This document shows positions 24,435 to 29,143 of a stretch of 64,000 nucleotides of DNA, one piece after another; position 1 is the first letter of the stretch, and every line of letters starts with the position of its first letter. A program made the position numbers and the translations under genes. Source of the stretch: Bifidobacterium mongoliense DSM 21395 (GTDB lineage Bacteria > Actinomycetota > Actinomycetes > Actinomycetales > Bifidobacteriaceae); NCBI RefSeq assembly GCF_000741285.1, contig NZ_JGZE01000011.1:62113-126112 (forward strand), written 5' to 3'. The notes beneath the pieces are model-generated. The model was not told where the DNA came from, ran no database searches, and was given only the letters and a program-made list of their open reading frames with translations.

Positions 24435-25538
24435 ATGAGTGAAGCAACGCAGCGCACCAGTGATTCCGGTGTCTCGATCTGGCTGGACGACCTGTCCCGC
24501 ACCCGCATCGAGTCCGGTTCTCTCCAGGATCTGATTGCACATAAGAACGTCGTCGGCGTGACGACCAACCCCTCCATCTTCCAGAAGGCACTGAGCCAGG
24601 TCGGTCCGTATGACGAGCAGCTCAAGCAGCTCGGCAAGGTCGACGTCGAGACCGCCGTCCGTGAGCTGACCACCACCGATGTGCGCAATGCCACCGACAT
24701 CTTCAGCGAGGTCGCCGAGAAGAGCGACTACGTGGACGGCCGCGTGTCCATCGAAGTGGACCCCCGCCTCGCCCATGACACCGAGACGACCAAGAAGCAG
24801 GCCGTTGAGCTGTGGGAGAAGGTCAATCGTCCGAACGCCATGATCAAGATCCCAGCGACCCTCGAGGGCCTGCCGGCCATCACCGCGACGCTGGCCAAGG
24901 GCATTTCGGTCAACGTCACCCTGATCTTCTCGCTCGAGCGTTACGAGCAGGTCATGGATGCCTTCATCGAGGGCATCGCCCAGGCCGCCGCCAATGGCCA
25001 CGACCTCAAGCACATGGGATCTGTCGCCTCCTTCTTCGTGTCCCGCGTGGACACCGCCGTCGACAAGCTGCTCGAGCAGAACGGCTCCGACGCCGCCAAG
25101 GCTCTGGAAGGCAAGGCCGCCGTGGCCAACGCCCGCCTCGCCTACCAGCTCTTCGAGAAGAAGTTCGCCGAGGATCCGCGCTGGGCCGATCTCGAAGCCA
25201 AGGGCGCCAAGAAGCAGCGTCCGCTGTGGGCCTCCACCGGCACCAAGAACGCCGCTTACTCCGACTGCAAGTACGTCGACGAGCTGGTCGCCCCGTTCGT
25301 GGTCAACACCATGCCTGAGAAGACCCTCAACGCCCTCGCCGATCACGGCAACGGCGCCGAGAGCATCTCCGGCACCTACGAGGAGAGCAAGGCCGTCATG
25401 GACAAGCTCGCCGAGCTGGGCATCAACATCAAGGACGTCACCGATCAGCTCGAGTCCGCCGGTGTGTCCCAGTTCATCAACTCCTGGGATTCGGTGCTCG
25501 CCGACACCCAGGCCGGCATTGATCGCGTCAACGCCTGA
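24435..25538 (+). CDS. tal: Transaldolase
   Basis: Transaldolase moves a dihydroxyacetone unit between sugar phosphates and completes the non-oxidative rearrangements of the bifid shunt with Tkt. The 367-residue protein is of the long actinobacterial type. It has GVTTNPSIFQKAL at the N-terminus, VSIEVDPRLAHDT, and the Schiff-base Lys in MIKIPAT. The start MSEATQRTS at 24435 lies nine bases after AAGGAG; another ATG at 24429 is only three bases away from it. Codon bias matches tkt. A strong 18-bp hairpin follows about 50 bp after the stop. Confidence 0.96.
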   Translation: MSEATQRTSDSGVSIWLDDLSRTRIESGSLQDLIAHKNVVGVTTNPSIFQKALSQVGPYDEQLKQLGKVDVETAVRELTTTDVRNATDIFSEVAEKSDYVDGRVSIEVDPRLAHDTETTKKQAVELWEKVNRPNAMIKIPATLEGLPAITATLAKGISVNVTLIFSLERYEQVMDAFIEGIAQAAANGHDLKHMGSVASFFVSRVDTAVDKLLEQNGSDAAKALEGKAAVANARLAYQLFEKKFAEDPRWADLEAKGAKKQRPLWASTGTKNAAYSDCKYVDELVAPFVVNTMPEKTLNALADHGNGAESISGTYEESKAVMDKLAELGINIKDVTDQLESAGVSQFINSWDSVLADTQAGIDRVNA

Positions 25539-25586
25539 ATGACTCCCGGCATCGCCGATCGTTGATCGGCGGTACCTCGCATTGCG

Positions 25587-25631
25587 AATCGTCCCCCGTA
25601 CATGTCCGTGTGGCATGTACGGGGGACGATT
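25587..25631 (+). terminator. Hairpin terminator of tkt-tal
   Basis: The 18-base arms 25587-25604 and 25614-25631 are perfectly complementary with a 9-base loop. The position 48 bp past the tal stop fits termination of a highly expressed transcript. Only a short T-run (GCGTTTGG) follows. Confidence 0.85.
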
Positions 25632-25664
25632 GCGTTTGGGGAATGGCTCAGTGCACATCGGCTC

Positions 25665-25783
25665 AGTGGGCAACGGCCAAGTGGGCAACGGCCGGCGAAC
25701 ATAGCACGGTGCCATAACACGGCACCGTGCATACTGGTCCACATGCATCGTCCGTGCGTACGGCACAGTGCACACGGACGATG
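25665..25783. repeat. Cluster of short direct and inverted repeats in the tal-HAD gap
   Basis: AGTGGGCAACGGCC occurs twice in tandem (25665-25678, 25680-25693). GCACGGTGCC and its complement (25704-25713, 25721-25730) form a perfect 10-bp hairpin with a 7-base loop. CATCGTCCGTG and its complement (25746-25756, 25773-25783) form an 11-bp hairpin with a 16-base loop. No convincing gene is present between 25540 and 25995; this cluster and the following minisatellite account for most of that gap. Confidence 0.7.
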
Positions 25784-25885
25784 TACACCGGTTTCCCTCG
25801 TATACGGTCCTGTACACCGGTTTCCCTCGTATACGGTCCTTGTACACCGGTTTCCCTCGTATACGGTCCTGTACACCGGTTTCCC
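25782..25885. repeat. 29-bp tandem repeat (minisatellite), about 3.5 copies
   Basis: The unit starts TGTACACCGGTTTCCC and ends GTATACGGTCC. Copies 1-3 (25782-25810, 25811-25839, 25841-25869) are identical, with one extra T between copies 2 and 3. A fourth copy from 25870 matches only its first 16 bases and then degenerates into GC-rich sequence with further ACGGCC echoes up to about 25990. There are no spacers, so this is not a CRISPR. The unit contains the palindromes ACCGGT and GTATAC. Confidence 0.9.
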
Positions 25886-25995
25886 TTGTGCACGGCCCCA
25901 CTCGTGCACGTACCTTGTATATCGGGTTCTTGTCGTACCATGGCCCCCTCCGCACACGGCCCTTACATGTCACGGTACACACGGCCTGCACGTAT

Positions 25996-26832
25996 CTAGA
26001 GCAAGGCTTCGATCCAGCGGGCCACGCCGTCGTCGTTGTTGGAGGGACAAATCCCGTCGGCGATGGCTTTGAGCTCCGGATGGGCGTTGGCGACCGCCAC
26101 GCCGTATCCGGATCGGGAAAGCATGTCGATGTCGATGGTGTCGTCGCCGAAAGACACGGTGTCGTGTTCGGACACGCCAAGACGGCGGCACAGGGTGTCG
26201 AGGGCGTCACCTTTGTTCGCACGGGGGTTGGAGAGCATCCACATGATGCCTTCGCTGATGCTGACGGCGAAATCGGATGGTATGAGCGCGGCGAGTTGGT
26301 CTCGCTGCGATGCATCGGGCAGGATAATGATCTTGTCGGCCATGCCATCAGGCACATCGGTGAAATCCGTCAGCCGATACGACTGCGTCTGCCACAGTAC
26401 ACGCACATCGAAGTTCGTATAGCGCACGTCGTGCATCACGATGCCCAAGCGCAGCCCGGGCATCGCATCGAGCAGATCACGGCACACGGCGCAGCCCCGG
26501 CTTGCCGGGAAGCCCACTCGCAACAGATGACCGTCGTCGGGGGTGTCGGGGCCGATGAGCATCGCCTCGTCCGAATACGACGGTTTGGTGTCAATGAGCG
26601 CACCGTTGAGGTAGGCGCATGCGTCCACGGGGAGGCGATTGATCATGGGAAGTGCCGTGCTGACCGGCCGTGCGGTGGAGACTGCGAATTTGATGCCCTG
26701 GTCATGTGCGCGTTCGATGGCCGCGACGCAGCGGCCGGTCAGGAAGCGCTCCTCGAAACTCGCCGCATCGTGAAGCAACGTGCCGTCAAGGTCGGCGACG
26801 AGAAGCCGGGGCATGGGTCGTTTCGTGGTCAT
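25996..26832 (-). CDS. HAD-superfamily hydrolase, Cof type (sugar-phosphatase-like)
   Basis: The 278-residue protein has the HAD nucleophile motif LVADLDGTLLHD near residue 10, motif II in FAVSTARP, and motif IV FGDDTIDIDML near residue 235. A Cof-type (C2B) cap lies between them, with a Cys-rich stretch GCAVCRD. Such enzymes dephosphorylate sugar phosphates, flavin precursors or other small phosphomonoesters; the substrate cannot be inferred. The start MTTKRPMPRLL follows GGGGGAGC. It is isolated inside the repeat-rich accessory region, with over 450 bp of non-coding DNA on one side and more than 1.1 kb on the other. Confidence 0.88.
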   Translation of the reverse strand: MTTKRPMPRLLVADLDGTLLHDAASFEERFLTGRCVAAIERAHDQGIKFAVSTARPVSTALPMINRLPVDACAYLNGALIDTKPSYSDEAMLIGPDTPDDGHLLRVGFPASRGCAVCRDLLDAMPGLRLGIVMHDVRYTNFDVRVLWQTQSYRLTDFTDVPDGMADKIIILPDASQRDQLAALIPSDFAVSISEGIMWMLSNPRANKGDALDTLCRRLGVSEHDTVSFGDDTIDIDMLSRSGYGVAVANAHPELKAIADGICPSNNDDGVARWIEALL

Positions 26833-27079
26833 ACCTGCTCCCCCAGTGACGATACGTCGGTGATGGTGTACTGTTCCTGATTGCCCATCATGTCAAGACA
26901 CCGAGACGCGATCGCATCTGTCGGCACGAGATCGGCCTCCGGTCGTCGTTTCCGGCATGGTGAGACTTGGGAGCACGTCCTGCGCTGGCCTTCGAACATC
27001 GCATCCACCAGCGGTCCGCCTGTATTGTTGGTCCGTCAAAGTGATACCAGGATCGTCTGCGAGCGACGAGGATCGGTGA

Positions 27080-27373
27080 GTGTGCAACGAGTCGATAAGT
27101 GGCTGGTGCAAGTCTTCGCTGCACTGACACAAGTCGTCGGTTACCGCACAAGGGTCGACGATTGAGCGTCGCAAGTCGATGATTCACCGTCACAAGTCGA
27201 CGATTGGGTGACAAAGATGGGCGATTGAGCGCCGCAAGTCTTCGGTTGACTGATGTAAGTCGTCGGTTCGCGCACCAAAATCGTCAGTTAGCCGACACAA
27301 GTCGACGGTTCGCGAACAAAGATCAGCGATTCAGTGGCACAAGTCGTCGGTTCGCATAGACAAGTCGGGTGAT
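27080..27373 (-). repeat. 14-unit 21-bp array, reading as a heptapeptide repeat with two in-frame stops
   Basis: On the minus strand, one frame from 27373 to 27080 reads as fourteen consecutive seven-residue units near the consensus N-R-R-L-V-x-x (for example NRRLVPL, NRRLVSA, NRRLTSV, NRRLAAL, NRRLVTV, NHRLATL, NRRLVSV). No unit carries an insertion or deletion. Two units contain TGA where Arg CGA is expected (27323-27325, 27284-27286). No complete gene spans the array now. It could be the remnant of a repeat-protein gene, or DNA-level sites spaced two helical turns apart. The whole 26833-27981 interval otherwise lacks credible genes. Confidence 0.8.
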
Positions 27374-27429
27374 ACGAAAATCGAGGGGCCATATTCCGCG
27401 GTTGTTTTTTGCTATCACCCGACTTGTCT
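27358..27429. repeat. 17-bp perfect inverted repeat at the upstream end of the 21-bp array
   Basis: AGACAAGTCGGGTGATA at 27358-27374 is exactly complementary to 27413-27429, with a 38-base spacer containing a T6 run. The left arm is part of the first unit of the 21-bp array. It may be a hairpin, a boundary of the element, or the target of a DNA-binding protein. Confidence 0.75.
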
Positions 27430-27533
27430 GATCGGTATGAGACGCGGCCTTCCATGTTCCGGACACCCCGACGGACAACGGAACACAGTCCTTGGCCTGG
27501 GGAACGAAAGAGATGCCGTCAACGCATATGTCG

Positions 27534-27614
27534 AGGTTCGCGCCGCCGGGGTGGGGCCGAGTTGGCGCAGGCACAGGGCAAGATGCAGGAATAGGTTCGC
27601 GCCGCCGGGGTGGG
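27534..27614. repeat. 22-bp direct repeat, two copies
   Basis: A 22-base sequence beginning AGGTTCGCGCC and ending GGGGTGGG occurs at 27534-27555 and again, identically, at 27593-27614, 59 bp apart. It lies in gene-free DNA between the 21-bp array and a 17-bp tandem repeat. Confidence 0.75.
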
Positions 27615-27678
27615 ATCCCAGGTTTTTAGGGCGGAGTGCATATTGCCGCGGACTTAGCGGGTGACGATGTGACTTACC

Positions 27679-27741
27679 GGTTCACGCGACGCGACGGTTC
27701 ACGCGACGCGACGGTTCACGCGACGCGACGGTTCACGCGAC
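27679..27741. repeat. 17-bp tandem repeat, 3.7 copies
   Basis: The unit GGTTCACGCGACGCGAC is repeated at 27679-27695, 27696-27712 and 27713-27729, with a 12-base partial copy to 27741. The copies are identical, so the array is young or kept uniform. No coding frame is evident. AT-rich sequence with further inverted repeats follows (27901-27980). Confidence 0.88.
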
Positions 27742-27857
27742 TATCGGGACTCCACGACTCGAAACGTTCATAAGACTCACGTGAATCGCACGAAGCATTA
27801 CGATGCATACGGCGCAGCGATTCACACCGCTCACACGACGACATACACAAAACGAAA

Positions 27858-27882
27858 CGGGCATCGATATCGTCGATGCCCG
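27858..27882 (-). terminator. Intrinsic terminator downstream of secG
   Basis: CGGGCATCGA (27858-27867) pairs with TCGATGCCCG (27873-27882) around a 5-base loop. On the minus strand it is followed by a T-rich tail (TTTCGTTTTG). It lies about 100 bp past the secG stop and fits a rho-independent terminator of the tpiA-secG transcript. Confidence 0.85.
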
Positions 27883-27981
27883 CCATAGTAGTGCCGATGG
27901 AGTGGATAAATCGGCTGAAGTGATAATCAACTGATTTATGATTAGCTGAGTGGATAATCAGTTAATCAGCTAACTGGATAA

Positions 27982-28239
27982 TCACCCGAGATTGAACCGT
28001 GACATGAGATCGAGCCCGATGGCCACGGCCACCCACAGGACCGCGATGATCACAGTCCAGCGGTTGAGGTTCTTCTCCGCGACGCCTGACGTGCCGGCAT
28101 TCTGGGTGAGCCCGCCACCGAACATGTCGGACAGGCCGCCACCCTTGCCCTTGTGCATAAGAATCAACAAGGTGAGCAGCAGACTGAAGATAACGATTAC
28201 GACGCGAAGCACCAGCTTCACTATGACCATGGCTGACAC
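27982..28239 (-). CDS. secG: Protein-export membrane protein SecG
   Basis: SecG is the small third subunit of the SecYEG translocon. The 85-residue protein has two transmembrane helices, about residues 5-26 and 60-80. They are joined by a cytoplasmic loop with the conserved KGKGGGLSDMFGGG motif. A GTG start at 28239 is preferred because GGAGG lies seven bases upstream; the ATG three codons later (28230) would be too far from it. It follows tpiA after 109 bp on the same strand, a common actinobacterial arrangement (pgk-tpiA-secG). An AT-rich region follows the stop. Confidence 0.93.
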   Translation of the reverse strand: MSAMVIVKLVLRVVIVIFSLLLTLLILMHKGKGGGLSDMFGGGLTQNAGTSGVAEKNLNRWTVIIAVLWVAVAIGLDLMSRFNLG

Positions 28240-28348
28240 GGACGAACCTCCATAACGACGATACTTCTGCAAGGATACCCCAAGGTGCCGGACCAACGGG
28301 CCGACCCGGCGTGATTCGTGCGGCATGTTTCACACGGGATGCACGACA

Positions 28349-29143
28349 TCAGCGGGTGGTCTTTACGGTGAGGCGGGCGATGCGCGCCAATTCCTCGACG
28401 TCGAGCGAGGCCCCGCCTATGAGGAAGCCGTCGACATCCGGTTCGGCGATGATCTGCGTGCAGTTCTTCGAGGTCACCGAACCACCGTAGAGGATGCGCA
28501 CCACCTCGGCGACATGCGGGCCAAAGGTATCCCTGAGATCGTCACGTATCGCCTTCGCCGCGTCCTGTGCGGTCTGCGGAGTGGCCACCATCCCCGTGCC
28601 GATCGCCCATACGGGTTCGTAGGCAACGATCAGGCGCGCGGCCTCCTCGTCGGACAGGTCGCGCGTGACGTCGTGCGCCTGGCCCACGGCGAACTCCAGT
28701 TCGATGCCCTGGCGGCGTTCTTCGAAGCTCTCCCCCAGGCAAAGGATCGGCTGCATGCCGGCAGCGAGCACGGCGCGCACTTGGTCGACGATGTTGGCGT
28801 CGTCCTCCGGATGGTATTTACGGCGTTCGGAATGCCCCACGATGACGTAGCGGCATCCCAGACGAGCCAGCATATCGGCGGAGACATCCCCGGTGAACGC
28901 CCCTTGGGTGGTTACGGAGACAGATTGGGCGCCGTACGTGATATGCAGATGGTCGGCCTCGACGAGCACCTGCACGCTGCGCAGTGCCGTGAAGGCGGGG
29001 AACAGCGACACTTCGCAACGCCGGTAGTCGAACTTCGCGTCGCGAAGCAGCCAGGCGAACTTCTGCACGAAATAGGTTGCCTCGAGATGATCGAAATTCA
29101 TCTTCCAGTTACCCGCAACCAATGGAACGCGCGTCGCGCTCAT
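28349..29143 (-). CDS. tpiA: Triosephosphate isomerase
   Basis: This enzyme interconverts dihydroxyacetone phosphate and glyceraldehyde 3-phosphate. The 264-residue protein has the substrate Lys in GNWKMN, the catalytic His in VIVGHSERR, the catalytic Glu in YEPVWAIGTG and the phosphate loop in LYGGSVTSKN. It is complete and of normal length. An 18-bp hairpin separates it from pgk, so it may have its own promoter or depend on partial read-through. Confidence 0.97.
   Translation of the reverse strand: MSATRVPLVAGNWKMNFDHLEATYFVQKFAWLLRDAKFDYRRCEVSLFPAFTALRSVQVLVEADHLHITYGAQSVSVTTQGAFTGDVSADMLARLGCRYVIVGHSERRKYHPEDDANIVDQVRAVLAAGMQPILCLGESFEERRQGIELEFAVGQAHDVTRDLSDEEAARLIVAYEPVWAIGTGMVATPQTAQDAAKAIRDDLRDTFGPHVAEVVRILYGGSVTSKNCTQIIAEPDVDGFLIGGASLDVEELARIARLTVKTTR

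Follow-up and report, generated by a model that had tools for sequence, protein, structure and literature searches.

We propose that the 21-bp repeat in the gap between the secG and HAD genes of the window (the whole 64-kb stretch of Bifidobacterium mongoliense DNA analysed here) is a copy of a composite, non-coding interspersed element, whose array would represent a helically phased row of putative protein sites; we give this reading about an even chance of being correct. The element is composed of n units of 21 bp, a 76-bp hairpin and a tail of ~40 bp (Table 1). According to our proposal, a 76-bp palindrome of a dispersed REP-like family would in this species carry a row of 21-bp DNA sites on one side, spaced two helical turns apart and bound on one face by a putative protein reading roughly TCGnCGRTT. 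The hairpin may mark the start of the row, with protein assembly proceeding outward from it, and a nucleoprotein or supercoil-buffering patch could form in this way between transcription units. Selection would hold the spacing and the core, while the remainder would drift. BIMEs bind proteins, and it is from this analogy and from the intergenic placement of the element that a supercoil or nucleoid role is suggested.

Table 1. Features of the element at the window locus, and loci of relatives used in the comparison of the secG-HAD gap.
Feature	Position	Strand	Remarks
21-bp array	27083..27355	+	13 units of exactly 21 bp; unit consensus over all arrays TGACACAAGTCGACGATTCAC
Unit 1 of the array	27335-27355		adjoins the hairpin
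Most degenerate units of the array	27083-27124		the far ones
TGA, first from left	27284..27286	-	in the frame of the earlier note; from translation
TGA, second	27323..27325	-	in the frame of the earlier note; from translation
76-bp hairpin (palindrome)	27356..27431	+	not in the earlier note
Hairpin arms	27358-27380 and 27407-27429		91% complementary over 23 nt
Tail	27432..27476	+	common to other copies (CGGnATGAGACGC...TTCCAT...TCCG)
Relatives' loci with a 316-338 aa frame in the secG-HAD gap			L061, L062, L065, L067, L069, L070, L071, L078, L079, L082, L089

The 21-bp periodicity of the window array is real and far from chance. Between 27060 and 27380 the same-base frequency amounts to 0.55, 0.53 and 0.56 at lags of 21, 42 and 63, compared with 0.17-0.31 at the remaining lags printed and a background of ~0.24. 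An earlier note on this DNA, made from the letters alone, had described an indel-free 21-bp period at 27080-27373 with fourteen units, and the period is indeed unbroken; thirteen units lie in phase, and the claimed fourteenth turned out to be the left arm of the hairpin, into which the 21-bp register of the array runs on. Eleven of the 13 units score above the leave-one-array-out threshold, every spacing being 21. Translation of 27574-26888 on the minus strand reproduced the NRRLV-type repeat of that note, with both TGA stops where it had placed them.

The element is dispersed over the genome. When positions 27080-27440 were used as a query against the own genome (2.17 Mb, 43 contigs), 56 matching pieces were obtained, and a covariance model of the hairpin gave 42 hits listed at 21 places, of which the 20 outside the window were also inspected. 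An array is present at 20 of the 21 hairpin places (locus L036 is a hairpin without array), with 0 to about 18 units per hairpin, and the arrays run in phase into an arm of their hairpin. The tail of ~40 bp, on the side of the hairpin opposite to the array, was recognised by eye in 13 of the 21 own-genome copies; at L033, array and tail flank a hairpin core that is inverted. Sixteen of the 20 proteins encoded beside 13 copies had a Pfam hit, and these belong to unrelated families (ribosomal S4, NusG, L11, chaperonin, ribosomal S20, LysE, DJ-1, MIP, SpoU, TGT, aconitase and others); one copy sits between the NusG and L11 genes.

For the analysis of the units, 168 of them were taken from 16 arrays (L033, L036, L038, L039 and L040 were not included). 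The earlier note had considered a remnant or fast-evolving heptapeptide repeat protein, and the frame in question does stay open for several units at a stretch, with variation at some third positions. However, stops occur in 25 of the 168 units and in 11 of the 16 arrays, and pN/pS is 0.82 in this frame, which is not the lowest value among the six frames (range 0.75-1.21, with 0.75 in another frame). Moreover, the arrays adjoin a hairpin at 20 unrelated, dispersed places. We thus find the protein reading unsupported and for practical purposes refuted, and assign it next to no probability; coding in any of the six frames is rejected because of stops and pN/pS. The case shows that a heptapeptide-looking repeat can arise without coding.

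Alternatively, the array could specify small RNA structures, each unit folding as a short hairpin or pairing with a hairpin arm in a transcript. The hairpin itself folds strongly (-38.7 kcal/mol as RNA in the window copy, z -7.0), and the purine choice opposite a fixed T within the unit may resemble G-U tolerance. Yet when units were resampled from the same columns, the real arrays folded no better than the resampled ones (mean z 0.22 on the plus and 0.42 on the minus strand), a lone array of the 16 reaching z -3.1 on the plus strand, and the presumptive partner columns 8-18, 9-17, 10-16 and 11-15 lie outside the 25 strongest by mutual information. A hairpin within the unit is rejected on these grounds, resampled arrays folding equally well on average and mutual information not concentrating on the candidate pairs, and we regard the RNA reading as a whole as very improbable. 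A search of 25500-28600 with the covariance models of Rfam 15 (E up to 1) gave no match at the element. Since neither a coding signal nor folding beyond column composition was found, the array appears to act as DNA.

The units combine a fixed core with a variable remainder. Among the 168 units, T10, G15 and T17 are conserved to 98%, 97% and 99%, followed by C11 (90%), T18 (89%), G12 (88%) and C4 (86%), whereas in the remaining columns the commonest letter reaches 39-76%, with a purine-purine choice at 7, 8, 9 and 16. As many as 162 of the 168 units are distinct. Leave-one-array-out scoring of all 21 own-genome elements found 205 units, and 178 of their 185 spacings are multiples of 21, of which 173 are exactly 21. 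All seven off-phase spacings are found among the outermost three spacings of the array concerned; chance may have produced the hit behind one of these (298 bp). The earlier note had named frequent indels at homologous loci as speaking against its reading; such indels are not seen among the own-genome copies. Judged without a separate count, the unit motif shows no obvious excess outside the arrays, a point against our main reading.

Furthermore, the arrays are polarised. The match to the consensus drops with distance from the hairpin, both by index (rho -0.35) and by relative position (rho -0.38, p 4.5e-7), and does so already over units 1-4, with scores of 25.2, 21.7, 20.9 and 18.6; the way in which the ends of arrays were set contributes to the low values of the last units. 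T10, G15 and T17 do not weaken between the proximal and distal halves of the arrays. Similarity between arrays is highest at unit 1, adjoining the hairpin (0.735), and slightly raised at units 2 and 3 (0.634 and 0.618). The earlier note had offered same-face sites as a reading of the 21-bp spacing, which fits, because phase is kept while letters change and the core is fixed; the binding as such is putative.

The same units bear on the question if the array is an old minisatellite that decays without function, its units having been duplicated long ago and drifted to saturation. Within arrays, units are more alike than expected irrespective of their order: 15 non-adjacent pairs with at most two mismatches were counted where a Markov null predicts 2.3, and two adjacent pairs where it predicts 0.4. 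A four-unit block duplication in L022 (p 0.001; L039 is marginal), the loss of phase and consensus at the far ends and the presence of further tandem repeats nearby point in the same direction. Drift, on the other hand, should strike all columns as well as the lengths, but three columns stay at 97-99% while others are down to 39-57%, and the phase is kept. We therefore consider a functionless minisatellite improbable. Over 17 arrays, the combined p for block duplication is 0.11, and a test for duplication by lag only gave p <= 0.05 in L026 alone (0.02). Array growth by copying of neighbours is not supported, as adjacent units are hardly more identical (0.618) than units of different arrays (0.598).

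The hairpin, in contrast to the array, belongs to a family with a wider distribution. A first model (R1) hit 24 of 112 congeneric genomes at E <= 0.01, 18 of them with at least five hits (both strands counted), while six genomes had one weak hit each, several of which look like other palindromes. From the R1 list, 75 loci of 14 other genomes were taken; of these, 72 entered the 91-row alignment, the other three fitting poorly, together with 19 of the 21 own copies (all but L028 and L029). The arms are paired in 89.7% of the alignment cells, changes on both sides are seen in 17 of the 20 stem pairs, and covariation is 0.281 versus 0.124 in shuffles, with none of 500 shuffles reaching the observed value. 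Picking the rows with a structure model biases the alignment towards pairing; the five standard pair types found at each of columns 14 and 15 go further than such a bias would. The palindrome is maintained by paired, compensatory change. In the 75 loci of the 14 relatives, the distance to a gene 3' end, as given by a rough ORF caller, is within 60 bp in 74 of 97 cases (median 20); enrichment between convergent genes is not significant (33/63 versus 16/42 other gaps of the same loci, p 0.17), which counts against our main reading. A second model (R2) was applied to 396 genomes of the order, under strict filters and with scoring of 12 candidates in each; the hairpin turned up in six genomes, which belong without exception to this genus, one of the 109 genera covered. 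Neither viral contigs (one pattern scan) nor plasmids and phages (distant searches) yielded the hairpin.

Arms and units have ACAAGTCG in common. In L039 (hairpin at 1088-1163), however, both arms are jointly switched from the usual ACAAGTCGGGTGATA type to another sequence, and the array units are ordinary despite this alteration, so that a single reader for arms and units is not needed.

Among the genomes searched, the array was seen solely in the own genome, where it is locus-specific. A two-unit pattern matched the own genome 43 times in forward and 33 times in reverse orientation (76 in total), compared with one match each in six of 111 other genomes, which is about the level of the reversed control (four matches in other genomes). 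The same pattern spaced as a 20-bp period, in effect a control, gave none in the own genome and two elsewhere. Likewise, a lag scan of the relatives' loci that were fetched showed no comparable array outside the own genome.

How the copies relate to each other matters for the possibility of a non-autonomous mobile element, in which hairpin and array would be the recognition end and the units repeated transposase-binding sites. Some transposon ends carry repeated sites, the hairpin arms resemble terminal inverted repeats, and the copies are dispersed at unrelated genes. In addition, some pairs have near-identical hairpins, and the nusG-rplK gap is longer here (1040 bp) than in six relatives (about 310-440 bp; the stretches of G098 and G102 in this comparison are without nusG). 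Nevertheless, agreement between hairpins does not extend to the arrays: the hairpins of L024 and L028 are identical at 75 of 76 positions, yet the unit order of the two arrays is unrelated (z -1.0), with a mean identity of 0.66 per unit. A transposase-bound mobile element would account for the dispersal, but not for this difference. Also, the REP-associated Y1 transposase (Y1_Tnp, PF01797) was detected in 0 of 15 genomes including the own one, control genomes being positive in 5 of 14 cases; an unsystematic search met no element-bounded partner gene, and no target duplication was seen, there being no alignable orthologous empty site among relatives that are ~75-76% identical over the coding query. 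Taken together, we judge the mobile element unlikely, if worth serious consideration. Copying of the whole element was rejected, as unit order does not follow hairpin likeness (z averages 0.09 and exceeds 2 in 9 of 171 pairs), and mean unit likeness tracks hairpin likeness weakly (Mantel r 0.42, 28 of 2000 permutations).

At the window locus, the secG-HAD gap is 1149 bp long, and a separate terminator-like site, at 27884-27856, belongs to secG, which lies on the right of the element. Both genes were present in 27 relatives. The gap is 64-212 bp in 16 of these, among them G098 and G102, which carry hairpins at other loci, whereas in the other 11 it measures 1.05-1.17 kb and is filled by an intact frame, which we take to be lactate-dehydrogenase-like. 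In the own gap this frame is missing, and nothing there resembles that gene significantly. As the relatives' gaps are mixed, the 1149 bp may either have been inserted or mark the site of a gene loss.

Hairpins are common to the copies and arrays are not, and the units nearest to the consensus adjoin the hairpin. Phase-locked protein sites, our preferred reading, could on these grounds be extended to a new class of element, in which the hairpin would anchor a row of 21-bp sites that is polarised and locked in phase, every site being unique; the row would be formed afresh at every locus and read by a putative protein. This extension is tentative and rather unlikely; if it holds, the element would represent a dedicated means of lengthening an array of binding sites and making it diverse.

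No published description of the element was found in the literature searched. CRISPR arrays have their cleanest units at one end and degenerate ones at the other, and the polarity seen here is similar; unlike in CRISPR, there is no constant repeat with long unique spacers, and the variable part consists of a few bases inside each unit. Plasmid iterons and the mycobacterial MPTR show direct repeats at a fixed period or a conserved core with a variable spacer, features shared by our arrays, but the latter are hairpin-anchored, non-coding and found at ~20 chromosomal sites. In the way it works, the element comes closest to the composite repeats BOX and BIME, though we class it as neither. BOX elements of Streptococcus pneumoniae, in the account of PMC3049150, are small intergenic composite repeats with structured ends, held to be non-autonomous, in which boxB modules in variable tandem copy number lie between boxA and boxC. 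Compared with BOX as described there, the element is likewise interspersed and intergenic, with a structured module and a tandem module in variable copy number, but the array lies outside a complete hairpin, abutting one arm, rather than between two end modules, and the 21-bp units are nearly all different and phase-locked. REP/BIME sequences of enterobacteria and pseudomonads, as presented in PMC2817692, are extragenic palindromes near gene ends, forming composite arrays. The dispersed extragenic palindrome near gene 3' ends is in line with this portrayal; in BIMEs, however, the palindrome is repeated, whereas here the repeated module is a direct-repeat half-site, and unlike in REP systems no Y1 transposase was found in the 15 genomes. 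By the definition quoted in PMC3049150, MITEs are short and dispersed with inverted terminal arms. The element is short and dispersed, too, with strong folding and terminal inverted arms whose stem pairs show double changes, but, measured against that quoted definition, it has a variable array outside the inverted repeat, and neither a target duplication nor, in an unsystematic search, a parent transposon was seen.

Two features make the element worth attention: a hairpin family in which compensatory evolution is strong and which our searches located in a single genus, and an array that is specific to this lineage and unusual in its signature, with units nearly all different, neighbours hardly alike, and phase and core fixed. 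If the array binds a protein, some 205 scored variants of the unit, held at a fixed spacing over 20 sites, would provide a direct route to a nucleoid or regulatory protein.

Several further observations were made around the copies. In L023 (about 300-1640), two array pieces are separated by the gene for a Mutator-type transposase (PF00872), which is read in two frames; in L032, the same end sequence borders the array on its left side (by eye). A tRNA gene is present in 7 of the 20 own-genome loci of ~2 kb each (L023, L024, L029, L031, L034, L036 and L040), and the 64-kb window has five tRNA genes, none near the element; tRNA genes are possibly in excess near copies, as judged without a genome-wide control. 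The copy in the nusG-rplK gap (L027) is the only one with a second, unrelated array, of period 20, on the tail side (lag-20 identity 0.53). Near the window element, further intergenic tandem arrays of 3.6-3.8 copies lie at 25637-25692 (period 15), 25782-25886 (period 29) and 27678-27741 (period 17, perfect), and to its right a perfect 22-bp direct repeat occupies 27534-27555 and 27593-27614, 59 bp apart.
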